Shown: in pieces, positions 17,295 through 62,017 of the stretch
How positions within the stretch are numbered: position 1 is the first letter of the stretch
Layout of the letters: every line of letters starts with the position of its first letter
From: Diadema setosum
Taxonomy: Eukaryota > Echinodermata > Echinoidea > Diadematoida > Diadematidae
Assembly: GCF_964275005.1 (NCBI RefSeq)
Contig: NC_092705.1
Coordinates: 22,577,980-22,641,979, forward strand
Reading direction: 5' to 3'
DNA: 64,000 nt
The notes under the pieces: model-generated
The model's input: the letters and a program-made list of their open reading frames with translations, nothing else
The model's database searches: none
Told to the model about the DNA's origin: nothing
Position numbers and translations under genes: made by a program

Positions 17295-18090
17295 CTAAAG
17301 GCCCGGTCCCACTGGCCGACGGACACAAAGCGTATGCAGAAAGGACACAGCGGACGAGCAAAATTTCGGGGATGGCTTCATCCGCTTTCATCCGCTCCAG
17401 AAATTGACAAAATTGGCGAAAATTGGCGGTAACAGAACGGAAATAGAACGGACGTGGGTAGTATGTAGTGGGGATGTCAAACGGATGTTCATCGGAAGCC
17501 TAGCGGATGAAAGCGGATGGAAGGGGATGACAGCTCCGAATTGGTTACCGGAGATAATTGCGAAACGGACGCATAGCAGAAAAAGCGGATGCAGAGTGGA
17601 TGCAGAGCGGATGCAGAGCGGATGCACAGGGGATGCTTTCGAAATGCTTTAGATACGAGATGCATACGCTTACATCCTTTCTATTAACGTGCTATTAACG
17701 ATGTAAAGACGTTCCACGTACCATATCTTTCCTCCCTCTTTCCGTTTTTAGCTGCAGCGGATGTGAGTTGCGAGGATGCCCAGAGGATGCAGAAAGGATG
17801 CAGCGGACGTTTAAGGGATGCCGCACGGACATACAACGTTTGTTGCTCGTATGTCGCGGATTTACATCGTACACAGCGGAAAGTTCATCCGTTCTAAAAG
17901 TTTTAAGCAGCTTAAAACTTTTTGCGCGGATGAAATCACAGTGGACGGATGCTCGATGGATAGAGCGGATGAAACACGTATGCGATGGGTACACAGCGGA
18001 TTCGTAGCGTTTTCCAACGGATGGCAAGATTTTTTTTGTACGCTTTACATCCTCTTTGCATCCGTAAGTGCAGTGGGACCGGGCCTTTAG
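17295..18090. mobile_element. TIR element, GGCCCGGTCCCACTG family, with GCGGATG arrays and a hairpin
   Basis: Perfect 20-bp terminal inverted repeats, CTAAAGGCCCGGTCCCACTG, bound a 796-bp segment. The interior is filled with degenerate GCGGATG/CATCCGC motifs in both orientations. A hairpin at 17896-17922 has arms AAAAGTTTTAAG and CTTAAAACTTTT around a 3-nt loop. There is no transposase, so it is non-autonomous. The superfamily is unknown. Confidence 0.9.
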
Positions 18091-18399
18091 TGAGGGAGAC
18101 GGGCGGGGGTCTAGAAAGAGGGAGGGAGTGATTGCGCCAGGCGTCTAGTGAGGATATGAGCATTGCGAAATTTGCAAAACGGAACAATTCTACTTGACAA
18201 TACACAAGGCAATAGGCAGTCAACAGCTGATAGCACGATATAATCGAGGGCAGTCCGATGCTGCAGCTTTCACCGAATGAAACATTCCAGAAAGCTTGCC
18301 AGCATGTACTGCATGTAGACATCACAAAGGACACTATCCTAGCTGTGTTGACGTTCTCTCTTTTTGGAAGCCTGATCTGTCGATTCAAGCCTGTCTATG

Positions 18400-18533
18400 A
18401 AATACAAATGTACAATTGATTATCATCATTCAGCGAGCAGACGGATCGTCATGTCTCCGTGTTGAGAGTACCGCAAGGAGACGAGTTATGCCCGACGGTA
18501 GTGATTTGTGATTAACCGTGTTTACATCGTAAA
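18400..18533 (+). other. candidate 5' noncoding exon of the HERC-like gene
   Basis: Sequence ending CATCGTAAAG is followed by a strong donor GTGAGTAC at 18534. It contains only short frames that stop quickly. It lies on the same strand and upstream of the first supported HERC coding exon, so it could be the first exon; this is inference from the donor alone. Confidence 0.3.
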
Positions 18534-20082
18534 GGTGAGTACACACGCTTTGTCAGCTTGCGCTTGTGTGCTCGTCAGTTTTGAGTTGTCAGTATCGCAC
18601 ATTGATTGCTCTCTGTATTCAATGGCATTGTCAATGGATTGGAAGTTTGATCTCTCTCCAGACCTTTCTAAAAACATGATACACGCGCAGCAAATTCACT
18701 GTTTATTGCAATGAATAAATGCAGCTCTTATCAGCGACTATCTATCTGACTGATGTTTATATAGGTAGCTAGCGAAGAATTGACTCACATTGGCTATAAT
18801 AGACTTTGTGTACGGACTGCAAACTGTAAGTTCTAAACAGGAGATTAAGACTTAATTGCCGCCAAATCTAGACAAACAACATTGCAAATACTGAGTATAT
18901 ATCAGTCCTAAATTCCACAACCATGGTCGCAGATGGTTGTTCATCTCTCTTATAGTATAGTTAAAGCACAAAGTCATTGTTTAGTAAACAGGATGCCATA
19001 AATATGATGATAAATAATGATAATGACAACGGTGTTGACCTCCTACTGCTACAACGACGACGACTACTGCTGCTATACTACTACTACTACTACTATTACT
19101 ATACTACGGAATTTTCCCGTGATTTTAACTGTTGCCAATCCCATTTGTGAAATGGTCATGCAAAACAAAAGATATCTCGCATACCGTGTCTTAACAGCAA
19201 CACCAAAAGAATCGTTGTTAAACGATCCCAGTTGCTATATTTCATTTCACTTCCTTTTAATTTCATTTTACTTCATTTCCGACGAAAGTATAAAATATGA
19301 CATTTGCATATACACAAAGTGAAGTAAAATGTGACTTTTGCATATTCAAATGAGATTTAAATGCACGCCATTTTTACAATGAAAAAAAAAATACTTTAGA
19401 TAAAGTATAAAAAAAATGCATTGGCAAACTGTAATTGAATCGTAACAAAGAAAAAAAGTCGGAAATGGAGATGACTGCTAAAGAGCCTAGCTTGTAAAAT
19501 GTTTATAGGGAAAAACAATGTCGTAGATGTGTCATGGACTTTTAAGTCCTGAAATCGACTTAGGAAGTCACATCTGCGTACGTGGTGGACGTGTTTCGAA
19601 GGTTAAGATTTTCTTAGGGAAATCCTTTTTTTTATTTTTTTTTTTTTACTGTATCCAATCAATTCAGAGGACGATGTATCCGCGTGGACACAAATTATTT
19701 CTTAATGATGTACCATAAGTGCATCACAAACATGCATACATTTTACTGGCAAATATTTCAGATTTTCTTTGTTATATTTTTTCCATTTTTCTGTTTCACG
19801 TTTACATCACTTACGTGTAGTTTAATATTATTCTTTTCTCTACATGTCATTTTTTTTTCTTTCCTGTATACGTTTTGTGTAAAAGTATGCATAAAAATTG
19901 GATCGTTTCGAAAGAAGTCTAAATACACGCAATCATTTGTGTGTGTGTGTGTTTGTTTTGGTTTTTTTTTAAGGAACGTGATCAGGGGACGGGACAGCAA
20001 GGGGCAGAGATCCTTGAAGATATCGAAATTTCATCTTTACGAAAAAGACCTAACTTCTACCAGGGAGGTGAGAGGAAACACG

Positions 20083-20263
20083 ATGTCCCCCAAGAAGGCA
20101 TCTAGGGGCAAAGAGGGTCATTTGAAGGTCATTCAACTTTCGACCTGCCGGAACGAACGCGTGACAAGGGTGCATTCCACACTCGATAGGGTCGCCATAC
20201 TGGTAGAGAGCGGACGTGTCTTTTCATGCAGAATATCGGATATCGCCGATCATGATCAATACG
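20083..20263 (+). CDS. HERC: HERC-like exon 1 (degenerate RCC1 repeat)
   Basis: From the ATG at 20083: MSPKKASRGKEGHLKVIQLS, then TCRNERVTRVHSTLDRVAIL and VESGRVFSC. The pattern V.......R.....L..ESGRVFS resembles an RCC1 blade, but the usual G.H glycine and histidine are lost. The donor is G|GTGAGA, phase 1. The true exon probably begins at the acceptor ending near 19973. Confidence 0.7.
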
Positions 20264-23200
20264 GTGAGAAGTAAGACAATAATAGAGTACTGAAGTGATG
20301 ATGTCACAATAGCTTTTGTTAAAAACAGGTGTGAGCAACAGGTGTGGGCATAAATAGTGTTCACAAAATATTTGGGCCAGGTGAGAACTATTATACAAAT
20401 AATGATTGTTTATGAGTGAGGATGAATGGCTATGCATGACACCAAACTTACCGGTACTCCTTCAACAAACTTTTTTTTTTTTTTTCGGAGGGGGGGGGGG
20501 GGGGGGTCTGCACCCTATTAAAACACACCTCTAAAAAGATCCTCCAAATCATCTTTATTCGTGTTCCAGCAGCTCTGAAACTATCCTCCTATAACACTTG
20601 AGTCGAGCAAAAGACCTAGTAACAGTTATGTTCCTTACCGTTCATTCCTATACTACCTACACTTGCAAAAGCATTACATTTTTTGTTGTTGTTTTGGACA
20701 AAGTTTAATTTAATAACTGTTTCTATCGTTCAGTTCAAGTGTTATGGGAAGATAATGTCCCAGCGGGATTAAGAATAGAGATGATCCCGAGGATTTTCAT
20801 TCTAAAGAGATGTTGCTTTAAGGCAACCCTGTACAATTCAATGCATAAAATTTTGACATTTTGTCAAAAACTATGCCATATTGAGATTATTGCGTATTCA
20901 CAAACAGTAACTATCCTAAAATCATGTCACCAAGTTTCAAGCATATATTCAGCCCCAAAATCCTCCAAAATCAAGCTTTTCTGAATGAAGACACATCCAA
21001 AATTCATCCTATTTCACGTAATCCGCATCTAATTATATATTCATAAACCTTAAAAAGCTGTAACTTTCCTCAAACATGTCCGATTTGGATGATTTTTGCA
21101 CCAAAAGAAAGCTCTTGAAATTCTCCCTACCCAATGTCCAGAAACTGCAAACAAACAGACAAAGTCTTCTTACCCCTAATGTGATTGGTCAATAAGCCTC
21201 AACTCTCCCAAAATTGTCCAATCACAGCACACCTCTCACACAGTCACCTGGAAGTTCCACTGATTCTCCCTACTGCCCAGGAAAGTTTATTTACACAGGG
21301 ATTGCCCCTGGCCCTGCTGTGTGCATTGTTTTAGTGTGTAGGTGAATGGGATTTAGGGATATGTGGTCAGTGTACTATTGGATAGTAGTGGAAAGTTCTT
21401 TCAAAGCCCTAGTACAAGTTGCATAATTATTTCAAAATGGGAAAAGCAAAACCAAGGAAAGCTTATGGAAAGAGGAAAAGAAAATTCTATGGAAATAAGT
21501 GGACAAAGGAGAATGAGGACATTATCACATCACAGGAAGAATCTGATGAAAGCAGATCTGCAAGTGCAACTGATGATGCTGGTGTTGCTGCTCATACAAA
21601 TGCAAGTAATGAACAGGGCTCAGACCAACAACAAGAGTACAATACGGGTGAGTGTTGCCCATCGGAAGCAAAATTACAGAACATAGACTGTTTGAACCAA
21701 TCTATCGATTCAATAGAATTTGATGACATCCCCAGTGGAACGCGTTTTGTTGATGTTCGCAATATGCTTGAATTTGTAAATTCATTACCATGTCCCGAGT
21801 GTCATTCCATCGGTTCTGTGACTGTAAAAGAAGCACGACAGGGATTAGCATCAACATTCAAGTTCAAGTGTGAATCATGTGGTCATGTGTCAGAACTAAA
21901 AACCTCAAACTTTATTGCAAGTTCTACAAAACCGTATGCAGAAACAACTAACCGGGCAGTTGTTGCTACATGTGCTATTGGTGGCCATCATCAGGATCTT
22001 GAAAGGTTTTGTGGTGCTATGGATATCCCATGCAACCTTAGTGAGAGGACATGGAACTCACATCTGCAGAAAATCCACTCTGCTACAAAGACATGTTCAG
22101 AGGAGTCAATGAAAAATGCTGGCAATGAGCTGAGATCTGAGGTAAACGTAGATGAAGCAGCAGATATCACAGTGTCATGTGATGGGACATGGCAAAGGAG
22201 GGGCTTCGCAAGTAAGAATGGCATTGGAACAGTCCTGTCAGTTGCTGGAAAGAAGTCCAAAGTGATAGATGTAGAAATTCTGTCCAACCATTGCAACATG
22301 TGTCTGAAACATAAGAAATCTCTCAGCGAGAGAGAATTTCACAAATGGTACAATGGGCACAAAAAACGGTGCAACAAGAACTACGAAGGCTCAGCAGGCG
22401 GAATGGAACCACGTGCGATGGAGACCATATTTAGAAGATCCGTGAGAACCCACAAGCTTCGTTATACTGGTTATCTTGGAGATGGTGACTCCAAATCATT
22501 CAGCCGTGTCTCAAGGGTTTCTCCACCAATATATGAGGGAGTGACAATAAACAAGCTAGAATGTTGTGGACACGTACAAAAACGGATGGGAAAGCACCTT
22601 CTGGATAAAACCAAAGAACTAAAAAACCAAACCTTTCGGCATGAAGGAAAGGTAGTAAGAGGAATTAGTGGTAATGGGAAGGGGAGACTAACAGTGAAAA
22701 AAATCAAAAGACTCCAGGGGCACTATGGAGGTGCTATAAGAAAGAATGCAGGAGATGTAGCTGCAATGAAAAAAGCTGTGTGGGCTTCCTGGAAGCACAG
22801 AGGAGGTAACCATGCCGACTGTGGGACATGGTGTCCGACCAAACAAGGCAAGGAGGACAAAGTCGACAACAACGCACTTGCCCCATATGTTCTCAAGGCA
22901 ATCAAGCCAGTGTATGAGAAATTATCACGTGACGACTTATTGCAGGCATGCGCTCATGGTGGGAGTCAAAACACCAATGAATCCTTCCACAATCTCATTT
23001 GGGAGCGTTGTCCAAAGCAAACATTTGTTGGGAGGAAACGACTGGAAGTTGCCGTACACGATGCTACTTTAGTCTATAATGATGGGGAAACTGGACGGTT
23101 ACCTATATACAATGAGCTGGGGTATTCTGGGGGAGTACATTGTCAGCTGTATTCAATGAGAAAAGACAGAAAGAGAGTGTTGGGTGCTCAGAAAGCTAGC

Positions 23201-26200
23201 TCTAAGAGAGCTAGAAAGGCGAGGAAGGAAAGGAGGATCGAAGCAGCTGATGATGAGCAAGATGTAGAAAGCAATGAGGATGAGCAAGATACAGAATATC
23301 TTGCTGGCGGTTTCTGAGCAGGGAAATGGTAAAATATTGATTTAAATGCAATTGAATAGAATGTACTGCCATGGAATACATTTAAAGTCATTGTGAAACT
23401 GTCCTGTTCAAGATAAATAATCTAAATAGGCTCATGATATAATTTGTATGGCCGTAATGGACTTTGTTTTACTTTTTATGAAATTGTGTTATTATTTGTC
23501 AACTTTCAACGCGATTTCCTCAAAATGTAATTTCTTCACTACTATGTGTCACTCTTACAGTGATAATTCAAGTTTTCATTGGAATATATGCTTCATTTTT
23601 GGCTCAAATGATAAGTAGACTCTGGAGAACAAAATAGACTTTTCTTACTGTTATATGTACTCCCTAGACTGAAATATGGGGAAATATGTGACAATATTAC
23701 ATCATAAAAATATGGATGAAAACTAAAAATTAAAAAAAAATATTTGTAATACCCCTACTACATAAAGAAAAGTCTATTTTGTAAATTACCTTACAAATAA
23801 ACTTTCCAGAAAGTTTCAGCTCAATAGGGGTAACCATTACAAAGTTATTTGAGTAAGAAGATTTTTCTTTGTTTTTCATTGTTTTTATCAGATGACCTTG
23901 AACGAACCGCTAAAATGTGGAAATTGATATTGTACTTTACACTTTGATGCACAATGACTGATGTATCAAAACTTTGAAGCAGAAATACAAGAATTAAAAA
24001 AAATGGCTAAAATTGTACAGGCTTGCCTTAATAACAGGGTGCAGAAAAAAAGTAAAATGTTTAACTCTTTAGCAACTGAAGATTCCGTTCATAATGGCCT
24101 ATGGTTCCATAGAAGGTACAACAACTACTCTTATTTCAACAACTTTTTAAATTATGTAAAATATCTCACCGCATTTTTTTTTGTGTGTCTATAATAAGTT
24201 ATGTTTATATGAAAGCCTCTATTACGACTTCTTTACCTAGATAATTGTGTGTCACAGACGTAATACTGGCTTACTGCTGTTGACCTTTGACCTCTTTTAA
24301 ATTCCATAATTATACATTCTATTTGAAAATGATTTTAATGGTTAAACATAATTCTTTAAAAAAAACGGACGGGCGGTTCGGGCTGTTCAGTTACTAATGG
24401 GTTAAAATTACATTTCATATACAATTATATTTCATATATACTCATATTTTCATGAAGTATCCATGTACGGACCAAGAGGCATCAACACAAGTCAACATCA
24501 ATTTGATTTCAAGGACCTTTTATGAATTTTGTTACTCATCATTATGATTGCATGGTTCTGTTGCAGATTTGTTTTTTTCCTTTACTACCACATTTTTTTT
24601 TTTTTTTTGGGGGGGGGATCATTTAACATTGTCAACACTTAAATACAATTTCAGTTGCTCTTCATACAGAAGATATTTTGCGCATATCTAATTAATTCAT
24701 TAAACCAGTTACATCTCACATAACGAGTTGCCACTTTGATGACTACAAGATAATATATGTATATATATATATATATAATTATATATATATATACCGTATA
24801 TATATTCTTTCTTTTTTTTCTGCAGCAAAATTCTGCAAGGATTTGTTGGGTTAATTTTGTTTTAATCTTGATGGTGTACACACAACTTTTACTTAATGGA
24901 ATTTCGTTGCAGTGGAAATGGTTCCACGGGGTCTTGCAGGAACCGTTCAAGAAACCATCAAATTGGTGGAGCTTACGGGCGGGAAGGAGCATTTTGTTGC
25001 CATGTCGACAGAAGGGAAAATCTACTCATGGGGCGCCAACAACCGTCAGCAACTTGGCCGGCGGGAAAAGAAGAAAAACAGGAATAAAGGAAGAACGGGA
25101 ATGAAGGGCAAATTTTCTCATATCAGGTCAGAGACATGATTACAGAGGAAATCCACCCCCAAAATAAACCAACTCTGAAAGAAAGAGAGAGAAAAGGTCT
25201 TCACAGAACGTTGCAAAAATGACAAAATGGGATGAGAAATAAGGAAGAAATTAATTTTCTCTGTTTTTTATGTTCCTTCACCTCTATCTCTAGTTCCTCC
25301 TGATTATTTTTTCACCTTTTCCCCCTATTTTTCCCCTCCTTGCTGCGCAATCGTTGTCTTCCACATACCTTCAATTTCTTTGGAAATTCGTTCTGTTCCC
25401 CTTCTCTTGGGATTATTATAGCTCGGAAGGCCTTCAAGAAACATCCCATTAATGATTATTTAAAGGGATGTATTTCTCGTTTGAAACGAATGCCAATAGT
25501 GAAGTCTCTTTAGAACCTGCATTTGTATAATCAGTCTGTACAAACCTTTGCAGCGTAATTACAATGTAGGGCCTATGATCATATTCAGATAATGAGTAAT
25601 CGTTTTCATCTCGTGATGTTCCTCTATCTTATGATACTCGTGAGTGCATTATAGTTGAGTGAAATGTGGAAATATACTCATCCATATCTCTTTGTATATG
25701 TGCATCATTTCAGTGAGGTTGAAGGTTTGACTGAGCAGAAAGTCATCCAGATCGCATGCGGAGACTACCACTGTCTAGTCCTTACAAGAAGTAAGTATAG
25801 AGAGGAAAATTCAAGAAAAGAAAACAACAACAGAATGATGCAAGTTATCAATATCTACTTCTGATTTGAAATCGAGACTACCACTGTCTAGTCCTTACAA
25901 GAAGTAAGTATAGAGAGGAAAATTCAAGAAAAGAAAACAACACCAGAATGATGCAAGTTATCAATATCTACTTCTGATTTGAAATCGATTACAACGTTTT
26001 TCACCTGTGCATATTAAATTGATATGTAAGCCCACGATTGGCGAAGAATGATAGACCATCAAGGCCCTGTTTCATAAAGCTGTTCGTATAGTTAAGCACG
26101 ACTTTATGATGAGCCAAGTGGGTTTCGTATTAAATCATTGTTAATTTCAGTAGCTAAAGTCAAAGTTTGCAGATGATAATTATTATCTTTACATTTCAAC

Positions 26201-38700: not shown

Positions 38701-41700
38701 TTCATTATTTCACACTCTTTCGTATTATCTGTTTCCAGCGCGCTCCTGGAAACGAGAGCCTCGTGGATTTGGACGGGTGGTAACTCTTTTCCGTGTGTCT
38801 CTGGATGGCTTCAGGCTCTTTGACTGTGACTTCTCCGGAATGGACTTCTTCACACAATCTATAAATACATTTACATGTTATTTTCTCTGGGCTTTGTCCT
38901 CTTTGAATGAGGTAATCATATTTCTTTTTTATGCCTCCGCCACGAAGTGGTGCCGGAGGCATCCGTCCGTCCTTCTGTCCGTAATCAATTTTGTGGACAG
39001 CATAACTAAAAACTGAGGTGTCCTTATGAAACTTGGCATGAGTATGTATAAGTGGGCAAAGTTGTGCCTATCAACTTTTGGGTGCACATGTTCAAGGTCA
39101 AAGGTCAGAGGGTCATGGTCAAATGCTCAAAATTTCACAATTTCCCCCATATGTATGCAATGCCTGAAGGTATTTTCTTGAAACTTAGTGTATACATGTA
39201 CTACCAAGTGAAGATTCTCCAGAGAGCATTTTGGGTCATGAAGACAAAGGTCAAAGGTCAAGTGAACATGTTAGAATATCACTTTTTTTCTCCATATCTC
39301 GCAAATGGTTCGAGGTATTTTTATGGAACTTATAGTGTCTATGCTTGTACTGACAGGCAGTGATTATCTTGGGAATTCCAGGGTTACGGGTCAAAAGGTC
39401 AAAGGTTAGGGGGTCAGAGGTCAAGGTCAACAGTACTCCTCATAATTTCAATATTTCCCCTCATATTTATGCAGTGCCTGCAACTTTTTTTGTTGAAACT
39501 TAATGTATACGTGTATTACCCAACAGAGATTCTCTGGGAAGTTTCTTGCCATAACGTCAGAAATCAAAGGTCAAGTGAAAGTGGTAAATTTCACTTCTTC
39601 CTCCATATCTCGAAAGTGACTCAAGGTTTCCTCGTAAATCTTATTACATGAATATTCTACCTGACAGTGATTCTCCTGAGAATTCTACAGCCATGGGGTC
39701 AAAGGTCAAGGGTCAAAGGCCAGGTTAAAAGGCTACAGTATTATTTTACCACACAATACTGAAATTACACTTTTTTCTCCATACCTTGAAAATTACTCAA
39801 TGAATAAACTTATAAGAGGGTCAAAAGTCAAGAAAAACGCTCAAATCTCCAAATACCTTCACTCGTAGACAACAGCCATTCATTCAACTAAATCTAGCTC
39901 TTTATGTGCCACGTTCGCACGTCCGACTCAGTCGACGGCTTGCCAACTTCGCATATTCTGCTCAACAAACAAAGCCGCCAAGACCGATCGATAAACCGCT
40001 AATTACTGCTAATCCCGCGGCACAATGAAAGCGTTTCTCGTGCTTTTGTTCCTCTCATAAACGGCTTGCATTCTATGTGGAGATCGACTATCAAGCGATG
40101 TTCCCAACTGGATTTGCTCGTACATTCTAAGTTTCTGTCACGGTTTTATGTGCAAAAGTCATGCCTTTATACTAATGTAGCAACTGGTCATTCAAAAGCA
40201 AAATTGAAAATAGACTCGTCATATAATTTATATCGAAACGAAGCTTGGCATTCCTCTTTAACTTTGCCTACTAATATGCCCATCCTAACAGAACTTTGTA
40301 GAAGTTATACAGATTGGAAAAACAGAATTCTTTCTCAAAGCATGACAACCTTCGTGTCTCAGAATAATGTGGCACTCAGGGGGTTTCCACCATGGCACAT
40401 AAAGAGCTAGTTCAAAGTGAACATTCAACACATTTGAGACAAACCTGCCATTTTGTACGTCTTGACACATTGTCTATAGATCCTATTTGGAGAATCATGC
40501 ATTATGGGGAGGCATACCAGTCACCATAGCGACATTTCTATTTTTTTCATGATGTTGATCTTATTACATAGGGCCTAGGTATCATGTAATCAGTGCGTGT
40601 ATACATAATGTTTAAACTTGTCTGCATTATGGGCATATTCCAAATTAGGGTGTATGTGCGCGATCTTTGAAAGGACAAGTTCATTTTATGTGTGGATTGA
40701 GTAAATGCATATTAGTGAACACAATGTCATCAGTGAATGTTTGAGGAAAATCGGACAATCCGTTCAACGGTTATGAAGATTTTAAAGTTTTAGTGTTGCC
40801 ATCGTCCATTGAAAAGAAGACTACTACACAGTTTGCATGGTCTGTGATGTTACATGCGTAGAACGTAGAATGTAGAAAGAAAATATAAAGAAAGTGCAAC
40901 ATATTGTCTCGCATAAGAAAAGAACACTTAATTCTCATTTTTCAGAAGACGGGGGGAATGGTAAGGCCCCCATCTCACTAGGATGGCGACCATGGCGATC
41001 TGTGAAAAATTCACAAATCGTGGCGCGATTGCCGTCCGTCTCCATTTTCGGCTTCCGATGCGATTACACTACGGTTTCTCAACCTGCGCTGTAGGCGATC
41101 GTGTCACGATGATGATACGACTCTGCCACGTTGTTGACGCATTTCCAGGCCGACAAGACCTGCTACTTCTACGAACGATCGAACCGATTGTATTGTGATA
41201 TTCGTACGCTTAGTCCCCCATCTCACTAGGAAGGCTACCGTGGCGACCATGGCGATCTGTGATGATTTAAAAAATCGTGGCGTGATCGCCGTCCGTCTCC
41301 ATTTTTGGCCTCCGAGGCAATTACACTACGGTTTCTTTACGCTCAACCTGCGCTGTAGGCGATAGTGCCACGATAATGCTACGACGCTGCCACGCTTTTG
41401 CCGCTTTTCCAAGCCGACGAGACGCGCTGCTTCTGCGATCAAAGCGATCGTATTGCGATATTCGTACGCTTATCAAGACGTCGCTACAAGAGTGATACGA
41501 TCGAAGCGACAGTGATACGTTTACGCCGAGCTCATGCTACGATCTCAAGCGATCGGGGTATAAAATGGGTTTCATGATTGAATTTCTTCAGTGAGATGTC
41601 AATGTCAAACCAACATGGATATGCAGAATAAGGTTTTACCTTACATCTTAGCATTCCAGAACACACCAGTTAGAACCTGATGTGAAATTGCACTATTAAG

Positions 41701-44700
41701 TCATCCATTCAATTAAAAGGGTAACATGTGTATATAACATCAAAGAACCGGCTTACGAGCAAACTGCAAATTGTATCTTACAATGAGACAGTTTTATGAA
41801 GATATATTTGAAAAGATTACAACTTAATTTACTTTCATTGACTTGCAATGGTAAGTATGGCAAACAAAAAAAATTAATAAACAGAGTAGATTCGTACTGA
41901 GTGTACGTGGAAAAATACATTTTATACGCTTTTCTCCACGTCCACCTTCATGGCCCCTGCATTTCATTTCATTTCATTTCATTTCATTTATTTCATTCCT
42001 TCTTTCTTTTTCGGCAAACATAACACGAAATGAATCAGAAGATATAACATAGGCATGTATTCGACTTTACATGGTAGATAATGGTTAACAAATACGAAAT
42101 TATACATGCATACCGGCAAAATACAAAGTTATGTCTGGAGAAAAAAAAAGAAGAAAGAACTGAGAGGTTCAGTGAGAAGTATGCTTGTAAATTGTGAACC
42201 ACTCAAAGGATTCTTGTGAATACATTAAACTTTTTTCTTTTTTCTTTTTACAAAGACAGGACAGAACAAGACAGTAGAAACACTACGACATTATATGACT
42301 TTACAGTAGGGTATACCATGACAGTAATAAAATACAAAAGAATAATGGAAAGAAAGGAGAGAAAGAAAAAGGAAATGAAAGGAAAAGCCAACACGCTGAA
42401 CATCGGGATCAGAAGAGGGAATTGAGGTGCTTCAGCTAGATCAGCCGAGCAAAGCTTGTACAAATACGATAAAATACACAATGATAAAATCAATGATTGA
42501 CGATGAACCATTAGGCTGTAAAGACCCGTTAAGTAATGAATCATATATATCTTAATATGAGTTCAAAAAAAAATTGTGAACTTACGCTTAAACGAATTCA
42601 AAGATAAAGAATTTTTTATATCACAACTTAAAGAATTCCAAAATCTAGGGCCAGTGTACATAAATGTATTTTGAGCCAATAACGTTCTCAGAAGGGGTAA
42701 ATGAAACTCATTAGATCGCCTGGTGGGATAATTATGAAAAGATTGATTTCGTGAAAACATTGAATTAAAAATGCTGGGAAGTGCATTTGTGTTATAATTA
42801 AACATAAACTGGCCCAGCTGAAAGAAAAACAAATCTTTAATTTTTAAAATCTTATATCTAACAAATAATGGATCTGCATGGGAACGTGGAGAAACGCCAC
42901 AAATAATACGAAGTGGCTTTTTTTTTGGTAATAACAATAATTTATCCAATAAAGTTTGATGGGCACTACCCCATGCTAAGATTCCATAATTTAAATAAGG
43001 TAATATTAATGAAAAATACAACGTCAACAAAGAAGACAACGGGATATGAGATTTAAGTCTATTAATAATACCAATATTACGCGAAATTATTTTACTAATA
43101 TCAATACTATGAGGCTTCCACGAAAGTTTATCGTCCACTATAATACCGAGAAACTTTGTATGAGATACACGCTCTAAGTGAACGTCATCAAAAATGATAT
43201 CGGTGCGTAAAACTTCTATAGACTTACTGAATAACATATACTTAGCTTTCTGAAGATTCAGTGACAATTTATTGGCTCTTATCCATTGAGTCACTTTTTT
43301 AATTCAGAATTAACAGTATGGACAAGAGTGATTGGATTTTGGTGGGAGAAGAAAATATTTGAATCATCGGCAAAGAGTATTAAAGAAAGTATGTCGGATG
43401 ATCTACAAAAATCATTTATGTAAATAATGAAAAGTAAAGGTCCTAATATACTACCCTGAGGGACGCCACATTTAATGACTTCAAGACTAGAGATGTGCTC
43501 GTTCAAAGATACATATTGTTTTCGGTTTTGCAGGTAACTCCTGAACCACTCCAAGGCCTTCCCTCGTATACCATAATGAGACAATTTATGAAGTAAAATT
43601 TCGTGATTAATTATATCGAAGGCCTTGGAGAAGTCCAGGAAGATACCAAGAAGATGAGAATGGTCATCTATAGTATGTGTGGCGTTATCAATAAACTTCA
43701 AAAGAGCATGAATGGTGCTGTGTTTCTGACGAAACCCAAATTGAGAATTCGTAAAAACATTATAATAATTAAGAAATTTAATTTTTCTTGTAAATATCAA
43801 TTTTTCCAAAACTTTAGATAGGGATGAAAGTAAAGAAATAGGTCTATAATAATTACTTATATCAAAACTGTCTCCTTTTTGAAATAAAGGACACACCTTA
43901 GCAATTTTCATACAATCAGGAAAAACACCATGTAATATGGATTTATTAAAAGTATGAGAAAGTGGATCAGCAACAGAAAATATAATTCTCTTTATAATAA
44001 AATTACTTATATCATCATAACCGGCACTTCGTTTATTATTCATTGCAGTGACAATGTCTATTATTTCATATTTCGTAGTTGGAGCAAAGAAAATAGAACT
44101 GGGATTGGATTGACCTAAAAATTTTGCAAAATGCGTATCGGACTACGGTACTTCTTTTGCCAGATTCTCTCCAATCATTGAAAAATAAGAATAAAAAATA
44201 TTTGCTATATCACCTGGATCTTCAACAATTTTATTATCAAATCTTATTTTTGTAATATTCAATTTCTGTTTTGATATATCCATGGCCTGCTTTAATATCT
44301 CCCATGTATTCTTCACGTCATGTTTATATCTTTCTATGTGAATGGTATAGTATTTCCGCTTTTCCGATCGTATGACCTTAGTCAAAATATTCTTATATGA
44401 TGTATATTTATTTTTTTGACTGCTCATTTTTTTTTTCATTTTGAACTTATAATACAACCTATTTTTCCTGTTAATTGAACGGAGGAGAGATTTCGAAATC
44501 CATGGAAGTTTAGGTGTTGTTTTATAATTTACTGACTTATCTTTTAGTTTAGGAATATAATCATCTAAATGCTTGTTGATTATCTCCATGAAATTATCGA
44601 ATGATACATTAACATCATCAGTATCACAAACAAAACACTTGACCAATCAACCCTATCTAAACAAGCGTCAAGACTAGCTAAATTTTTCCGGTGTGGCTCT

Positions 44701-47700
44701 ACATCTAAATGAAGGAAAATAAGACTTATTAACCGAATGCTTAAGATCACAACATGTTATAATTGGAAAGTGATCGGTCATATCGGATAAAATTATAGAA
44801 GAATTCAAAACTTGTAAAGAATTAGTAAAAATATTATCAAGGAGGTTGGCAGAATGTAACACGTGTAGGTTTGGAAATTAATGGCAAAAAAAGAGGATGA
44901 CAAAAATAATTCAAGAAATTCTTGTGAAGTATTATCATCACTCTTAATCAAATCAATATTAAAGTCACCCATTATATAAATACATTTGTTAACAAAACGA
45001 GGGCTTTTTAATAAATTTGTGATACTATCTAAAAAATCTTTTGAACTGGAGTTTGGGGGTCTATAAACAACACCAACTATAATATTTTTACTTTGAGGGA
45101 TGGAAATTTCAACAAACAAAGACTCTATTATATCATTTATTAAATTTAGATCATCACAAATATCAAACTCAAGTTCATTAGATAAATAAATCGCAACCCC
45201 GCCGCCAGTCCTATTCACTCTATTATTTACAATCAACTCATAGCCATTCAATGCATACGGCATTTTTTGTACGGTAAATTGATATCAGATGATAACAATG
45301 TTTCTGTTAACCCTATTACAGATATTTGTTGTTTATACAGATAATTATTTGTTGCATCACTTTCTTTTGTTCATGGTTGGTTCTTGTTACGTAATACTGT
45401 AAAAGTGGTAATTTTCATAGCGGTGGGGGCCGCTTTCGACACGCTTGAGTTACGCCTAACGCGTTGCTACCCCGTCAGATTTACGAATGTGGCGCTTTTA
45501 ATGCGCTCGTGAGGCGATTGTGATACGCTCTAAAACCATGCACGGCGACCGCGCTACGGAAGTTTTGGACATGTTCAAAACTTCCGTAGCGAGGTCGCCG
45601 ACCATGGCGATTGTGGCGACCCTCCGCGCTTCTGAACCGCTCAAGATAGTCACTACGATGGTGAAGATTTAAAGCGATCAAGCCACGATTCTGTGCGCTT
45701 CGTTGATTTTTGATGATCGGAGCGGAATCGCCGTCTAGTGAGATGGGGGTATTATCAAGATCTCGCTGCAACAGTGATACGATCGGAGCGACAGTGATGC
45801 GTTAACGCCGGGCTCATGCTACGATCTCAAGCGATATTGGTATAAAATGGGTTTTATAATTGGATTTCTTCAGTCAGATGTCAGTGTCAAACCAACATGG
45901 CTATGCAGAATATAGTTTCACCATTATTCTTAGCATTCTAGAATACACCACTTAGAGCCTAATATGAAATTGCAAGTTAACATCCATTCAATTAAAAGGG
46001 TAACATGTGCAATTTTATGAGAATATATTTGAAAAGATTACAACTTAATCTACTTGCATTGACTTACAATGGTATATGACAAACAATTTAATAATCAGAG
46101 TAGATTCGTCCTGAGTGTACGTGGAAAAAAGGAGTTTTATGCGTTTTTCTCCATACCCACCTCCCTGGTCTGGTGCATCACTTTCTTTGGTTTAAGGTTT
46201 GATCCAGTTCAATAATACTGTTAAAGTGGTAATTTTCAAGGACGGTGGGCCGTTTTCGATGCGCTTGAGTTACGTTTTACTCGTTGCTACCCCCGTCAGA
46301 GCTACGAATATAGCTACGCTTTTAATGCGCTCGTGAGGCGATTTTGATACGTTCTAAAACCACAGCCCTCTCGCAACGGAAGTTTGGGACATGATCAAAA
46401 CTTGGCGGCGACTATGGCGATGGTAGCGTCCCTCCATGCTTCTGAACCGCTCAAAATACGATGGAGAAGATTTAAAGCGATCAAGCCACGATCCGCCGCG
46501 CTTTGTCGATTTTTGATGATCGTAGCGGAATTGCCGTCTAGTGAGATGGTGGTATTAACTGTTATCACTATCTTGCCAGTGAAAAATGGAGGGAATGTAT
46601 ATACATTCGTAAAAGAAAAATTATGGAATTCCCTCAGTATAATCTATTTTCTATAATATTGTTGTCCGATTTTCTTTCACCTTGCTTCTTGCAGATGAAC
46701 GCGTGCCATGATATCGTTCCGATTTCAACGTTTTACCTCCCGGGTCTGTACACGACCTACGAGGAGTGTGAAAAACTGATGTGTGACGTGTACTTTGGTG
46801 TGCAGAATCCAGCAACTGTGAGCGCTGAAATCTTCCAACAAACTTTACTTATTTTCATGACACAATTTCGTAACATTATTTCGTTGGATTGACTGTGATC
46901 GAGTAAAATGATTACAGAGATGATGATGAGAGGAGGATGGGGGATATGTTCAAATTCAAATTCAAATTCAAACCTTATTTTCACTTTTTTCATGACGCAA
47001 TGTTCAATTCAGGAAGATAAGAACTGAACGAGGGTATATCAAAGTCCCGATAGGAGGTCAAGAGATTATTATCTCGCTATAATACTATGTATGATACTAG
47101 AATGATACTAATGATACTAGTATGGTGTATTATACCATACTAGCATTTTAAACGTCAAGTTTAGAACATATCCGTATGTCTTACAACAAAAGTCGTCGTC
47201 CGTTATTTTACATGGATTAATCACAGCGTTACGGTTTGCTATTCCAAACGTCGAGTTACTTGCGGATCCAACCATTCCTAGGTACCCCCCCCCCACAAAG
47301 TTGTCCTGCACTTGTTGCTGATAATAAGCAATTAATGTAGAGGTGCTTATCGAAAGTTACAAGATCTACACGGTGATCCACCTCTCTACCAGAATCTAAC
47401 CATCTATTCCTTGTATCTTTTTCAATTTTTCCTGAAAATTTTAGCAAAACTTGTTCTTAACTTCTTGATTTATTTTGCAAACAGGTGAGCAAACCAGTGT
47501 AGGCAAAAAATAAATAAATAAATAAATAAAAAAAAAAATCGGCTTTGGCAGAGGTACCGAATATAATCTACGATCGATTACTTATGATAGATAGGTAAAT
47601 AATGACAGTTTTACTGACGAAAATGAAATCACACCCCACCTACGCTATTTGTTTCAGGAGACAAAATGGCTGGAAGAATACCCATTTCTCTTGAATCTGA

Positions 47701-50700
47701 AGACGAAAATTCGAATCCTGACCGCCCATGACACTCTGAGACAGAAGGTTAGTGCTATAATGATAGGCGTTAATAACCGGTTTTGTTTTCATGCCTCCGC
47801 CACGAAGTGGTGCCGGAGGCATTATGTTTTCGGGTTGTCCGTCCGTCCGTCCTTCCGTCCGTCCGTAATGAATTTTGTGGACAAGGTAACTATCGAAACC
47901 TGTTGAGGTATCCTAATGAAACTTGGCATGTATGTGTATTAGGGGGTGAAGTTGTGCCTATCAACTTTTGGGTGCACATGCTCAAGGTCAAAGGTCAAAA
48001 GGTCAAGGTCAAATACATAAAATTTCACTATTTCCACCATATCTATTGAATGCCTGAAGATATTTTCTTGAAACTTAGTGTATACATGTATTACCCAATT
48101 AAGATTCTCTGGTGAAAGTTTGGGTCATGAGGTCAAAGGTCAAAGGTCAAAAGGTCAGGGTCAAATACATAAAATTTCACTATTTCCACCATATCTATTG
48201 AATGCCTGAAGAGATTTTCTTGAAACTTAGTGTATACATGTATTACCCAATTAAGATTCTCTGGTGAAAGTTTGGGTCATGAGGTCAAAGGTCAAAAGGT
48301 CAGGGTCAAATACATAAAATTTCACTATTTCCACCATATCTATTGAATGCCTGAAGATATTTTCTTGAAACTTAGTGTATACATGTATTACCCAATTAAG
48401 ATTCTCTGGTGAAAGTTTGGGTCATGAGGTCAAAGGTCAAAGGTCAAAAGGTCAAGTGAAAATATTAAAACTTCTTTTTTTTTCTCCGTACCTTGGAAAA
48501 TTGTTCAAGGTATCTTCATGGAACATAGTATATACATGTGCTGACTGGAAGTGATTATCTAGAGAATGTAGGGTTCATGGGGTCAAAGGTCAGGGGTCAA
48601 AGGTCAAGTGCAAGACTTCAAAATTTTACTATTACCCTCATATTTATGCAATGCCAGCAGGGTTATTTTTTTACACTTGGTGTATGCGTGTGTAACCTAA
48701 TAGAAATTCTCTGGAAAGTTTTTTTTTTCTCTTTTTGCCTCAAAGGTCAAAAGGTCAAAGATCAAGTGAAGGTGCTGAACTAACTTTTTCCTCCATATCT
48801 CGGAAGTGGCTCAAGTTACCTTGAAACTTAGTACATATTATGCATGTTCTACCTGAAAGTAATTATCTTATGAATTTTAGGGTGAAGGGCCAGATGAAAA
48901 TGGTAACAATTTACTATTCAATTCAGAAATTGCACTTTTTCTCCACACCTGTACCTTGAAAATTACTCAATGCCTAAATGTATGAATGGGTCAAAGTCAA
49001 GTTAAAGTAATTAAATCCCTAGATACATGCTCTCCTATTCATCCAATTAAACCTACGTCAAGGAAGGTGAACATTCAACACATTTGTGACAAACTTGTCA
49101 TTCCAATGTTTTGCCAATTTTGTGAAAATGTGATCACACAGTGTCCACATGTACTATCTAGACCTATTGGGAAAATCATGCATTATGGCGGAGGCATACC
49201 AGTCGCCAAAGCGACATTTCTAGTTTTGTTTTTGTTTTAGCATCCGTTTGTTTTGTTTTGTTTTTTAAGAAAATAAAGTACGATATTGAAGAGTTTAATA
49301 CAGTTTATTCTTCCAATGAAATGGAATGGCTGAGATAATACAGCGCTCTGATTCACTTTTAGAGGTTGAATTTACATTATCATTATAATATTATATATGT
49401 TATTACACAAGACAGCTTGTTTGATCAATGACAGTAGTATTTGCTATTTGTATGATTATCCTTATTTGTACGTTTTGGTAGTCATATTTACCTGCCCTGA
49501 CATGAAATGTTGATACTGAATGATTAATGCATTCTAATTCATAGTTATCTTTTTGCTTTGTTTTCTTTTCCAAGCGGAACTAGGGGTTGGAGGTGGGGTG
49601 GGCAGGGGTTAAAGGTCCAGTTTACCTTTGGGAGCAGTGATTTCAAAAATGTTCCAGATATCACATTTGATGCATATGTGTAGGTCTGTTGTATCATAAA
49701 ACATCCTACCATATGAAATATTTGCAATAAAACCTAAAATATAAGGAGATATCAGGGTTTTTCTCAATAAACCGTAACTGTATACGGTTTAGTCTGGAAA
49801 CATTTTTATTATAACTATTGTTCACATTTTGTGTATTTAACAACACTTAACATCGATTATACGGATTCAAATTTCGACAGTGGTTGTTTCTATCCCTAAC
49901 TCACATTTTAGAACTATTTTAAAGCACTAATGCTTTCATCTGCAAATGGTAAATTATGCCTTTAAGATTCTGCGTATCAGCTTGTTAAAGCCAGCGATTT
50001 CGTCCATGCGTAGACGTGGCAGAAGTATTGATAGGATTAGTATTAGTGGCGGCATAATATCATAACGGGTCGTAAACTATATTGAATATCATTGTCAGTA
50101 TAAGAGTAATGCATATCAAAATCATCGCTGGCGAGTTTGCAATTAAAGGTTTTGAAAAAGGAACAGTGAATGAACATTAGAAATTGGATACCAGCTACTT
50201 CTTGAAAAATTATAAAAATACATGAATTAGCATAATAGATCACAAGATTGGACATCTAGCGTCGGACAATGGCCAATCGAACGAAATTCACTAAGACCTA
50301 AATACGATGTATCTCTCGGGACAAGGCAAGGTTCACGTGGACAATCCATTATTGTCTGTATCTTTTTCAATGTATTTCAACATTAAAAAAAAAAAATATA
50401 TGATTACTTGATGTTCTTTTGTACGTTTAGGGAATGTAATTGAGATGTGATTATCCATCTATATCCATAAAATGAATATGACATATTTTATTTTCGAGAC
50501 AGTTCGCAGTTCGCAGCTGCAGTGCAGCTGACAAGACATTCCGCATCTCGGCAGATCGGCAAAATGTTTTCAACGACCAGTTGCGACTATACCTCTCTTC
50601 GGTCACAGAGAAACATGTACAGCGCCCTCTCTATGTGGAATTTGCTGGTGAAAAGGGGGCGGACTGGGGAGTCCTGAGCACGGTAGGGAATAAATCCAGC

Positions 50701-56181: not shown

Positions 56182-56579
56182 CTTAAAGGGACTGTACAGT
56201 ACTGGTTGAGGTGGAGATGCATGTTTTGAATATTCCTAAGTGAGGAAATGAGAAACCTCTTATGAAATATGAAAGAGCATGTAATATTTAAAAGGATACA
56301 ACGTTTATTTGATGAAAATTGGTTTTCAAATGGCTGAGATATCCCAAAAAGTGATGATAATGATAAAAGGCGACAGTCCACGCCTTTTATTAGGATCTCT
56401 TTATTTCACCTTGTTTTGGGATATCTCAGGCATTTTAAAACCGATTTTCATCAAATAAACTTTTGATACCCCTTAGAATTGCATGCTCTTTGACATGTCA
56501 TAGAGAGATTTCTGAATATCTGGCAAAACGTTAAAAGCTAAATCCTCACCTCAACCAGGACAGTACACACCCTTTTAAG
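56182..56579. mobile_element. foldback MITE, CTTAAAGGG...GGTTGAGG family
   Basis: Ends CTTAAAGGGACTGTACAGTA and, reversed, CTTAAAAGGGTGTGTACTGT, both followed by CTGGTTGAGG. Arms are around 180 bp and include GGCTGAGATATCCCAAAA and its complement. 398 bp. It is the reference copy for the pieces at 29.8 and 32.9 kb. Confidence 0.88.
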
Positions 56580-57517: not shown

Positions 57518-58589
57518 TTACATTTGAACAGCACTTGGGCTCTGAAGGTAATTCATTATAACTGGAAGCTCCTCTGTACGAAAACATTCTTCGACAATAT
57601 TTGGTCTTGGGTTTGGCAGTGAGAGGGTACCATTTGAGCGGAGAGAGTAATTTCGGGACATAAAATTAAATAATTCTTTAAGATATGGGGCACTGTAATC
57701 ATGGAGACATTTGAAAACCATGGAATTTAAATGCTTTTTGCGCCTTACGTTTGCAGAATCCCAGTTTAAAATTTGATGAATTTCATGATTTGATACATGC
57801 TTATATGGATTTATCCCAAGAATTATCCTACCCGCCCTATTTTGTAACTTTTGTAAGTGCGAAGTATATTTCAGCGAGGCCGAGTCATAAATCAAATCGG
57901 CATAGTGAAACAGAGGAAGTATAAGAGAATTATATAATAATTTTAAGCATGTTTCATTAAGAATATGACGAAGTCGACCAAAATATTTTACAAGTTTACC
58001 AGCTTTACCAAATAATACATTGATGTGAACATTCCACTTTAATTGCTGGTCAAGTGTAACTCCAAGGTACTTAACTGTTTCTTTGTGTTTGATCACTGAC
58101 CTGCCCACATAACTTTATGCGAAGGGCATTGCGGCGTGATAATAAGGAGCGAGATCCAATCAAAAAACTCTCAGTCTTTTGGAAATTTAGACTAAGTTTG
58201 TTACGACACATCCAATCATACAGTCTTTTAAGATCATTGTTTAGAACGTTTTCAATATGGATAGGGTCATTATGTGAAAAATATAACACTGTATCGTCTG
58301 CATACAAGTGAATGCGACAATTCTTTACTTGACTGACAATATCATTAATATAAATCACAAACAGAACTGGCCCCAGGATAGAGCCCTGTAGGACACCATG
58401 ATGTATATCTAAAACATTTGACATAACAGAATTTAAGAGTGTTCCAACTTTTCGACTTGTTAATTAGCTTCTAAACTATTGCAAGCAAGACAAGCATCAG
58501 AAAACCCCATTCGCTTTAGCTTTTGCAACATAATGAAAGGATCCACCGTGTCGAACGCTTTCTTCAAATCAATGAAGATTGCCCCCGTG
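57518..58589 (-). pseudogene. LINE reverse transcriptase, 3' part, broken
   Basis: Contains LKKAFDTVDPFIMLQKLKRM, then HGVLQGSILGPVLF, YADDTVLYFS, KYLGVTLDQQLKW and LFHYADLIYD. The frame changes near 58440 and near 58090, and a stop interrupts it about 58462. Nonfunctional copy. Confidence 0.85.
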
Positions 58590-59327
58590 TAATGCCCCAG
58601 TCACTCAGTGCTTTGCGATGGGTTACGTCCGCCGCGGATAGATACGAATGAGTGAACGCAGGGGGACGCAGCGTGGACGCAGGCATCCGCAGGGACGTAT
58701 ACGTAGACGTAACTGTCCGTAACTCATCCGTAAAGAAACGCAAATTGACGGCGCCAAGCCTGCGAAATTTTGAAATGTTCAAAATTTCGCAGAGGGATTC
58801 TACGGATGTAGACTTTCGCAAGTAACCGTAACCAAACGTAATTATCCGTAACTGAACGTAACTATCCGTAGCCTGGACGCAGACCATCCGCAAAAAATTT
58901 TACCTCCCGTCCGTTTGCGTTCGTTTACGTCCACCTTAAGTATCCGAAAGTAATCGCAAGTTAACGTATATCAACACTTTCGTCCGCTTACGTATATTTG
59001 CGGACAGTTACGGATGCTGCGGAAGATTACGTCCTTCGACGTTTTCCGTTTTCCACTCGCATTGGAACACAGAGACTCGTTGGAAGCCACACAACTCGTG
59101 TTGCCAAGCTGCAGCGCATTTACCTGAAGGAATGCTACAATACAGTCGGAGCAGTGGAGAGGCAGAACCGCATGGTCAAATTATGACATTTTTACCACAA
59201 ATGGTCATTTTAGGTGGCACCCATATACTCATGACATCGGTTGACCCTTGGTGCTGAACTTTTTTTTTTTTTTTTTCATGCACTCTTTGAATGTATATTT
59301 TTCGAAAAGGCAATATTTTGATTACGG

Positions 59328-59660
59328 GAAGGGGTGACAGCATTTCATTCACTTTTCTGGCCGGGAAAGGTGTGTGACAGCGATAACTATATAAAATTCT
59401 CTATGTCAATGGTATGTCAAAATTCTCTATGTAGGGGATGGGGTGAGAGCATTTCATTCACTTTTCTGGCCGGGAAAGGTGAGTGACAGCGATAACTATA
59501 TAAAATTCTCTATGTCAATGGTATGTCAAAATTCTCTATGTAGGGGGTGGGGTGAGAGCATTTCATTTACTTTTCTGGCCGGGAAAGGTGAGTGACAGCG
59601 ATAACTATAAAAAATTCTCTATGTCCATGTCAAAATTCTCTCTGTCAATGATATGTCAAA
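59328..59660. repeat. 109-bp tandem repeat, three copies
   Basis: GGCCGGGAAAGG recurs at 59359, 59468 and 59577. Each unit has GTGACAGCGATAACTATA and ATTCTCTATGTCAATG. It abuts the inner LINE fragment. Confidence 0.92.
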
Positions 59661-61560
59661 TTCTTCAAACATCCTCTCTTTCTTATTATTTGCGGATGAT
59701 AATAATGTGTTTTATCTGATTCTGATTCTGATCGATTAACACATGATACTTTAAACTGTGAATTAACGAAGTTACTCCATTGGATAAGAGCGAACAAACT
59801 GTCAATAAATTTGCAAAAAACTGCAAGAAAAATGCATGTTGTTCAGTAATTCGCTAGAAAATCTACCGAAAAACGTTTTCCTGGAAGACACGGTCATAGA
59901 CGAAGTCTCTTCCATCAAATTTCTAGGTTTGATTCTGGACAATAAACTTATACCCGGGGTTTGCATATTAATTCTGTTTGTCGTGTTATTTCAAGGAATA
60001 CAGGTATTATAAATAAAGTTAAATTTTATCTTCCCAAAAATTTACATTTTATGTTATATTCTGCTTTGATACTACCTTACTTAAACTATGGTATACTCGC
60101 ATGGGGAAACACTTTTTCTAAATATACAGAAAGAATACTATTATTACAGAAAAAAGCTCTTCGTATCATTTGTCACGAATCGTGGAGAAGTCATACTTAT
60201 AATTTATTTCACGAAAATAATATTTTTAAAATTTGACCTTTATCGTTTGCAATTAGGACAATTCATGTATAAACTCACCAACCATTCTCTCCCCCTTGTG
60301 TTTGATTCCATGTTCTTAAAGAATGAAACTGTTCATGCATATCCAACCCGTCAATCCCATGAATATCATTTGCCTTTGACTAGAACGGTTTTTGCAAAAT
60401 CTTTATTCTCCTTTCCTGGACCAAAATTCTGGAATTCTTTTGATAATAATGTAAAAGAAGCTTTAATTCTTAATACATTTTCTTTAAAGTTAAAGAATTA
60501 TTCAAAAACTTCGTATGCAGCAAAATGAATTATCATTATTTTTTTTTTTTTTTACTTTTGATTTTCAAAATCGTCTGTGCGTCGGTAACCTCACTACTCT
60601 TTGTTTATCAGCGAGCCTCTGCCTCCAGTGCCCTGGTTATGACCATCATTTCCCTCTCCTCCTCCCCCCCCCCCCCCCCCCGTCCACCTCGGACTTCCTA
60701 CCTCCCTTACTATCTTTCTATTTTCTCATCAATCTTTCCTTACAAGAGAGCCTCTTTGTGTTTGTTAATGTGAGTTGGTATGTGTGCATGTATGTGTGTA
60801 TTACTCTGTCTGTCTTTTTTTTTTTTTTTACTACCGTTAAGGGAAATTGTTGTTGTTGTTGTTATTGTTTTTTGCTATTATTTTTTTTTCTGTATGAGGG
60901 GACTGCATTCTACAAGCCCTGTTTTTTAGCATTCCCCTCCATTTCCAGCAATATTGTTTATGCATTCACCACAGTGACGTAACAGTTATTTCAGTTATTT
61001 GTATCTCTGTTGATAATTTACCTGTATCTCTTTTACAATGTTATTCTGTTCATCGCATTGTGGTACTGATTTCATGACATCTGTGTATTCGAGTGTTTCA
61101 TTGTATTTCTAATTATTTTGTTTGATGGAAAGGAAATAAATCAACTTGAAAAAATGAGAACGAATTTGGTATTTCTCTATAGTCTTACCCACTTTAAGCT
61201 CCATGGAATGTGTATTACATTTTTGTATATATATATATATATATTGTGCTTGGGTGTGGGAGGGGTGTTTGAATGTCTTGATGTCTTTTTTTTTCTGGAA
61301 ATTTAATAAGCATTACTTTATTATAAAAATCTCCTTAACAAAACCCAATAAGTCATGAATATCGCTGCACAACAACAGCGTAACCACAGTTTGTCTATTC
61401 CATGACTGTAAAGTAATAATTTTCTTACTCTAATGTTTAACTTATCGATCTATATTGTATTATATTTGTGGCATAATTATGTTATGTATTCTTTACATTT
61501 ATGAAGTTTATTCATATTTGAGTTGCACAAATAAAATTTAAGCCTCAAGTTCAAAATTTC
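59645..61560 (+). mobile_element. 5'-truncated, decayed LINE fragment
   Basis: Plus strand. The residual RT end SNILSFLLFADD is followed after frame breaks by NTGIINKVKFYLPKNLHFML, LPYLNYGILAWGNT, LGQFMYKLTNHSLP and FPGPKFWNSF. It is close to the C-terminal half of the LINE at 42.6-45.3 kb, so the same clade. Several frame changes (near 59710, 59835 and 60235). The 3' limit is uncertain; AATAAA-bearing sequence ends near 61540. Confidence 0.75.
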
Positions 61561-62017
61561 ATATATCTTTTATCATTGCAAAGCAAATTAAAGGATTACG
61601 ATTTTTTTCACAAATTGTACGTAATTGAATTTCAGTTTTCCCCAGTCATGCCAGTGCACAATGTAAGACAGTCCACTATGTGATAACCTTGCTGTCATAA
61701 CACACTGACTTAGCAGGGATCGTCACAGAAAACAATACTGTCCATAATTATCTATAACAATCTGTAACTATCCCTAACTATCCGAAAATATCCGCAACTC
61801 TCCGCAAGTGTTCAGAACTATTATGTGCCAATTCGTAAGAATATCCGCAAGTGGACGCAAGTATTCGCATCTGATCGTATTTGTCCGTATCACCCGCACT
61901 TTTTCTCGGTATGTTTTGAATAAATTTTCTAGTGACGGCAAAGGATCCGCGGGAGTCCGCAATAGAAATGACTTTTTTGGACGTAACGCCGGACGCAGAG
62001 CATTATGTGACTGGGGC

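Follow-up and report, generated by a model that had tools for sequence, protein, structure and literature searches.

A one-sided palindrome at a similar distance from the end in transposable-element families of the sea urchin Diadema setosum linked to PIF/Harbinger

A window of 64,000 bp from the sea urchin Diadema setosum (assembly GCF_964275005.1, contig NC_092705.1, positions 22,577,980 to 22,641,979 of the forward strand) contains three elements with terminal inverted repeats (TIRs), denoted E1, E2 and E3 (Table 1, window positions). They follow one plan: the TIR adjoins a TWA or TA target, the ends contain runs of a CpG-bearing motif that differs from family to family, and one of the two ends has an A/T-rich dyad (approximately AAATTTTGAACATGTTCAAAATTT), centred ≈165–185 bp inside the element. 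In these elements and in a fourth family, E4, inverted copies of the family motif stand on either side of the dyad. An initial annotation of the same DNA had proposed that a single transposition machinery serves all three elements. Here, we compared them with related sequences in the whole genome (912.7 Mb, 102 contigs).

Structure of the three elements

The elements, TIRs, motif runs and hairpins were found at the positions given in the annotation. E2, read there as a single element at 40966–46554, is indeed at that location, but it consists of two nested copies plus a long interspersed nuclear element (LINE). Similarly, E3 is in place at 58592–62017, but is split by LINE and minisatellite sequence rather than being one unit; the minisatellite has a period of ≈109 bp and occupies window positions 59323–59645. 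The E1 end had been listed together with target-site letters and was not that of the element only. Past the target letters, the TIRs read AAGGCCCGGTCCCACTG (E1), AGGCCCCCATCTCACTAG (E2) and ATGCCCCAGTCACTCAG (E3). The arrays and TIRs differ between families, as described, but the TIRs are alike in part, and the interiors are not wholly unrelated, since the motifs of E1 and E3 overlap (ATCCG/CGGAT).

The palindromes are centred 178.5 bp (E1), 181.0 bp (E2) and 184.5 bp (E3) from the nearest end. A spread of at most 6 bp has a probability of p ≈ 0.0004 under random placement, a post hoc value for which the length of E3 without its inserts was approximated. The window contains nine hairpins, three of which are pure (AT)n; the hairpins of E1, E2 and E3 make up three of the other six. 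On either side of the core stand inverted copies of the array motif of the same family, listed for E1 and E2 in Table 1; they read CTGCG/CGCAG in E3 and ATTCG/CGAAT in E4. An enriched CpG-bearing 6-mer (n ≥ 4, ≥50-fold) was found in five of the six element ends; among 262 control segments, each of 400 bp and overlapping, 11 had one. A pattern for TIRs in the window was derived from E1 and E2, and its excess is therefore circular.

Table 1. Positions of the three elements and their parts in the window
Feature	Position	Strand	Remarks
E1, 790 bp non-autonomous PIF/Harbinger element (miniature inverted-repeat transposable element, MITE)	17298..18087	+	TIR AAGGCCCGGTCCCACTG at both ends; ends 93% identical to coding copy L022
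E1 palindrome	17884..17934	.	core AAAAGTTTTAAG-CAG-CTTAAAACTTTT at 17896–17922; inverted CATCCG / CGGATG outside core
E1 left array, GCGGATG-type motifs	17298..17660	.	CATCCG/CGGATG, 8 copies, ≈120-fold
E1 right array, GCGGATG-type motifs	17701..18087	.	CATCCG/CGGATG, 7 copies, ≈99-fold
E2 outer copy, ≈1.05 kb	40964..46555	+	pieces 40964–41212 and 45753–46555 by self-alignment; broken by inner copy
E2 inner copy, ≈1.1 kb plus LINE insertion	41213..45752	+	nested at TTA of outer copy; TIR CCCCCATCTCACTAG
Non-LTR (long terminal repeat) retrotransposon (LINE) within inner E2 copy	≈41955..45350	-	RVT_1, E = 6.9e-28, in open reading frame (ORF) 43291–44142; limits approximate
E2 palindrome	45543..45600	.	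core GGAAGTTTTGGACATGTTCAAAACTTCC, flanks GGCGACC / GGTCGCC; in 15/19 E2 loci (≤5 changes)
Decayed palindrome of outer E2 copy	46378..46405	.	centre 163.5 bp from end
E3, non-autonomous element	58592..62018	+	lies within LINE reverse-transcriptase gene; broken up by LINE and minisatellite repeats
E3 palindrome	58760..58792	.	CTGCGAAATTTTGAA-ATG-TTCAAAATTTCGCAG; 184.5 bp from left end; one change in L041

Coding relatives and further families

The exact 18-base TIR of E1 matched 567 places in the genome and its reversed control none, and the best 40 of 349 E1 candidates were 98–100% identical to E1. When GTCCCACTGC was combined with the exact 19-base E1 core at a set spacing, 245 matches were obtained (control, 0). 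At locus L022, a pair of E1 TIRs lies 6431 bp apart, with 93% identity to E1 over the first 296 bp and the last ≈445 bp. Its interior encodes a DDE_Tnp_4 transposase (PF13359, E = 2e-32), and a second gene matches MADF/Myb-SANT (PF10545, E = 8e-7; L022 was the one copy tested). An autonomous relative between the same ends, of the kind the annotation had anticipated, thus exists for E1 and is of the PIF/Harbinger type. Judged by its sequence, E1 is a deletion derivative of this 6.4 kb transposon. A second candidate, L021, has 5.1 kb between E1 TIRs and turned out to be an E1 copy with an insertion, in which no Harbinger gene was found.

Eight loci carry the E1 transposase family (L061–L067 and L076, with L075 counted as part of the L067 locus). 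The E1 TIR lies 5′ of the gene in seven of them; the full palindrome is present in five, and L066 has it with one change. Hairpins missing from most copies had been named in the annotation as evidence against a common machinery. This was not the case for E1, in which 25 of the 28 insertions read had the full hairpin and three a partial one. Most E2 loci likewise retained it (Table 1); the other four of the 19 had no palindrome in the stretch read. For E3, a second copy (L041) is 89% identical across its first 825 aligned positions. The exact 18-base left end of E3 occurs in only one other place in the genome, where the palindrome is kept with one change.

E4 was found nested in L093, a copy of E2. 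It has a related palindrome and a disrupted Harbinger transposase, which shares 45% identity with that of E1. From ≈35 similar transposase matches, 20 were read with their 5′ flank, a sample chosen by the Harbinger transposase match itself. All but one carry the TIR AGGCCCCCTCACACCTGAGCGAA / AGGCCCCCTCACACCTGAG (≤4 changes) together with the core GGGATTTTTGAACATGTTTAAAATTTCC, exact or nearly so; the single locus with neither is L105. In 16 of these 19 loci, the core centre lies 179–180 bp from the C run, and in the remaining three at 151, 157 and 188 bp.

The core pattern AANTTTTGAANATNTTCAAAANTT occurs at 237 sites in the genome, compared to one for the reversed control. The sequence AAGGCCC was found 150–180 bp before the exact core at one site, an E4-type copy, indicating that most of the 237 sites have no E1-, E2- or E4-type TIR there. 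Seven sites (L115–L121) were read, from 50 among the matches listed. Four of them, L115, L116, L120 and L121 (the last judged by its array alone), are members of a family denoted F5, with TIR AAGGGGGTATCTCACTGAGCGG and motif GCGAACG, and two (L117 and L119) to F6, with motif CGAGTTA and a tentative TIR. At L118 (G000:C2:35491167-35491598), a palindrome with arms of unusual length (GATCGGGAAGAAATTTT...AAAATTTCTTCCCGATC) lies beside a TIR-like AAGGCCGTGTCACACC facing away from the palindrome. The F5 TIR followed by the palindrome after a gap of 125–155 bp gave 141 matches (control, 0), and 74 of 100 among the matches listed span exactly 165 bp.

The upstream end of locus L071 matches the F5 end in 43 of 45 bases and lies 5′ of a Harbinger transposase, and the F5 palindrome end is found 4.3 kb beyond the transposase, pointing inward. 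The same order, with the palindrome at the far side of the transposase, was seen at C4:21.72 Mb. A shorter arrangement at C4:41.47 Mb looks like a copy with an internal deletion. In these three loci, the F5 palindrome is thus placed at the end remote from the transposase. One F5 copy extends over approximately C12:33404290-33410512.

The transposases of E4 and F5 were recognized as relatives of that of E1 by translated search beside their ends, with identities to it of ≈45–59% for the E4 segments and 49% for F5. These matches tie E4 and F5 to Harbinger transposases, that is, to one superfamily and not to one transposase. Of the single machinery proposed in the annotation, the superfamily stood for E1 and the E4 and F5 families, a shared transposase did not, and partners of E2 and E3 were not found. 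The layout of the three window families is common to at least three more families in the genome. Between families, paired changes in the arms occur on both sides, at outer positions 1, 4, 5 and 7 and inner positions 1 and 3; there are exceptions to the pairing, mostly in E4 and F6. Enrichment of the array motif was seen at each end of E1, E2, E3 and F5, and was weaker in E4.

Target sites and superfamily assignment

Target triplets were read by eye for 28 E1 insertions, leaving out the L021 pair. Identical TWA triplets were present on both sides in 16, triplets that differed in the middle base only in nine (seven TAA/TTA, two TTA/TAA), and otherwise different triplets in three. Of 16 E2 insertions scored in the same way, eight matched (one of them TAC), four differed in the middle base and four did not fit. 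Unequal triplets were seen in L013–L040, in the E2 copies L043–L059, and at window positions 17296–17299 and 18086–18089. The nesting of E2 shows a duplicated TTA: the corresponding site in the inner copy reads CGCTTATCAAG, and the inner element lies between two TTA. For E3, the reading frame of the host LINE gene (window 58071–63436, minus strand) on either side fits a 2 bp TA duplication; no empty site was found in other LINE copies.

The unequal triplets are unexpected for a plain 3 bp duplication, since so high a share of differences is unlikely in young copies. The duplication may at times comprise 2 bp (TA), as suggested by the E3 host frame, or flanking letters may have been carried over from the donor. 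For mPing, one study gives a 5′ overhang model, but found that insertion was not steered by donor flanks (PMC4561436).

The flanks also bear on other superfamilies. Spy was rejected for E1 and E2 by the 16 of 28 E1 insertions with matching TWA and by the duplicated TTA at the E2 nesting. Spy elements, which insert between AAA and TTT, are not known to produce a target-site duplication. Kolobok was rejected since the flanks of E1, E2 and E3 are not TTAA repeats, and ISL2EU since they are TWA or TA and not AT, the duplication given for ISL2EU (A|AT|T) in PMC4482050. E2 and E3 would be placed in PIF/Harbinger by their TIR, target site and palindrome.

Several candidate partners were set aside. 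The transposase gene at L093 belongs to the nested E4. At L047, the stretch contains the left end of an E2 copy but no right end, and a different repeat that also bears arrays breaks into the copy; this insertion (L047:496-620, G000:C3), with repeats ACGGATTGTCGCC, is possibly another family of this kind. The Kolobok-type gene at 21431–23314 has different ends, and no TIR pair could be settled for L092. A possibly aberrant or nested insertion was seen at L042 (G000:C4:39862700-39866100), where a single right end lies between two E2 left ends that are turned towards each other. In viral contigs, the E2 TIR was found at 12 places, by our estimate below chance for a 15-mer, and four other patterns had no matches; a phage search with E1 gave none.

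The Kolobok-type gene belongs to an apparently intact transposon at window 20817–24031, with TTAA-flanked TIRs of ≈21 bp (TTAAGGCAACCCTGTACAATT, 95% complementary) and a Mutator-like transposase of 628 amino acids (PF20700, E = 5e-63). Foldback-type repeats with long inverted arms, probably other MITE families, lie at 37271–37632 (88% complementary) and 56185–56575 (≈71–81%), and stretches resembling them at 29780–29930 and 32994–33222. Two repeat-bearing stretches, 47786–49001 and 38926–39832, are similar to each other, and a 115 bp duplication with 99% identity lies at 25761–25988.

Possible role of the palindrome

We consider it probable that E1–E3 are non-autonomous PIF/Harbinger families with one shared end architecture, in which the dyad is a common docking or enhancer site on one side. 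A Harbinger transposase was observed for E1, E4 and F5, and is presumed for E2 and E3. At both ends, the motif array of each family would be bound by that family's own ORF1 product, a fast-evolving Myb/SANT (MADF) protein. The dyad would act as a site for a dimer, and not in the form of an extruded hairpin, and would help to draw the two ends together for the DDE transposase. Short copies would keep the dyad since it is needed in cis. More tentatively, a branch of PIF/Harbinger may have functionally unequal ends, with the dyad as a required assembly site that is kept while the TIR, the arrays and the side of the transposase change.

Several observations weigh against this proposal. Neither the E2 ends nor the E3 ends were found to enclose a transposase, and among the transposase matches examined (the best 91 of 821 and the best 95 of 1310 candidates), the nested E4 is the only one that begins 10.5 kb or less from any of the 96 E2 ends listed. 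The array at the right end of E2 is weak and falls below the threshold for the CpG 6-mer. The E4 palindrome is imperfect, and an F5 transposase fragment at C9:20350016, 1.7 kb from an F5 palindrome, has an orientation that misfits a single element. No palindrome was found at L067 and L076, which belong to the transposase family of E1 itself. Nor is the core unusually conserved within families, ranking 46th of 370 windows in E2 (16 copies) and 125th of 532 in E4 (19 copies); the case for function therefore rests on the comparison between families.

One Harbinger locus (L073/L091) has the E3 TIR core GCCCCAGTCAC and arrays of GCGGAT upstream of its transposase, yet no palindrome in the 7 kb read, which counts against a strict link; the second end of this locus was not found. 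Its transposase groups with loci in which no palindrome was found 5′ of the gene (L068–L090 less L075; 22 loci, ≈1.5 kb each). In a tree of 26 transposase segments, E1 and E4 fall together (support 0.975), apart from these loci. L071, the F5 locus, falls among them and has its palindrome at the other end, so that the 5′ search cannot show that others of the 22 loci lack one.

The palindrome might instead be a transcription-factor or auto-regulatory site of an element gene, left in MITEs as a remnant. Its position in E1 and E4 is a few hundred base pairs upstream of the transposase gene, and TATA-like matches lie downstream of it (at 431 and 550 in L022, where the first ATG of the transposase frame is at 659, and at 606 in E4), and the palindrome end of F5 has a TATA-like match ≈160 bp further in, perhaps serving ORF1. 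The centre of the E4 and F5 palindromes, GAACATGTTY, and that of E2 also resemble the p53-type half-site RRRCATGYYY. However, the E1 centre AAGCTGCTT misfits this half-site, and the palindrome is on the transposase side in E1 and E4 but on the far side in F5. Furthermore, the E1 MITE, which shares ≈445 bp of its palindrome end with L022, keeps the palindrome with no TATA-like match in that end and has not retained the transposase start codon. A one-sided cis site fits the F5 and E1 arrangements better than a part of the transposase promoter, and we regard a regulatory role of the palindrome as unlikely and a site used in transposition as the likelier role.

Alternatively, an ancestral end may have had the palindrome, which its derivatives keep by chance and without a present role. 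The lack of excess conservation within families and the degraded dyad of E4 would agree with such passive inheritance. On the other hand, core and distance have been kept among families with transposases ≈45–59% identical and with changed TIRs and arrays, and several of the arm changes keep the pairing, so that chance retention appears distinctly improbable. That the elements belong to three unrelated superfamilies with chance or convergent hairpins could draw on the missing autonomous partners of E2 and E3, but is very hard to reconcile with the similar core, distance, TIR and target site and with the bridge that E4 and F5 form to Harbinger transposases.

PIF/Harbinger elements need both a transposase and an ORF1 protein (PMC2836001). 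The Ping/Pong/mPing and Harbinger3_DR systems, with their Tourist-type MITEs, share with E1 the two genes (DDE_Tnp_4 and Myb/SANT-type), a TWA-like target and the origin of MITEs by internal deletion (PMC2836001, PMC9921582). Arrays that change along with ORF1 would fit that published system, if ORF1 does bind them. For mPing, internal regions are described as promoting or inhibiting transposition, with no specific promoting sequence common with mPong (PMC9921582). Unlike these systems, the families described here combine motif arrays particular to each family with a palindrome that stands on one side only, at a set distance.

In Ac (hAT), too, short motifs are repeated inside the ends, and the Spm and Ac motifs contain CpG. 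The arrays resemble the subterminal arrays of Spm/En (CACTA), in which short motifs, the TnpA sites of Spm, are repeated inside the ends (PMC9921582). In contrast to Spm/En and Ac, the transposase superfamily and target site are others, and the arrays here are, by analogy, putative binding sites. Internal enhancers are also a feature of P elements and Sleeping Beauty. Like these transpositional enhancers, the palindrome would be a cis-acting part inside the TIR that aids transposition (PMC9921582); unlike them, it is a single A/T dyad at one end, flanked in E1–E4 by the array motif. In the accessible parts of the open-access literature on hairpins, palindromes and subterminal motifs in Harbinger elements, MITEs and sea urchins, the palindrome was not described and its core letters did not appear, nor was any family-crossing palindrome at a set distance described there.

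If the more tentative view of unequal ends is correct, the dyad would act as a transpositional enhancer across the whole lineage and could be used to classify orphan MITEs. The palindrome may tie orphan MITE families to a transposase superfamily by a part other than the TIR. The families would form a natural series in which the probable DNA-binding specificity, represented by the array, changes, while the probable architectural site, the palindrome, stays, and the two-protein recognition of Harbinger ends would become directly testable.

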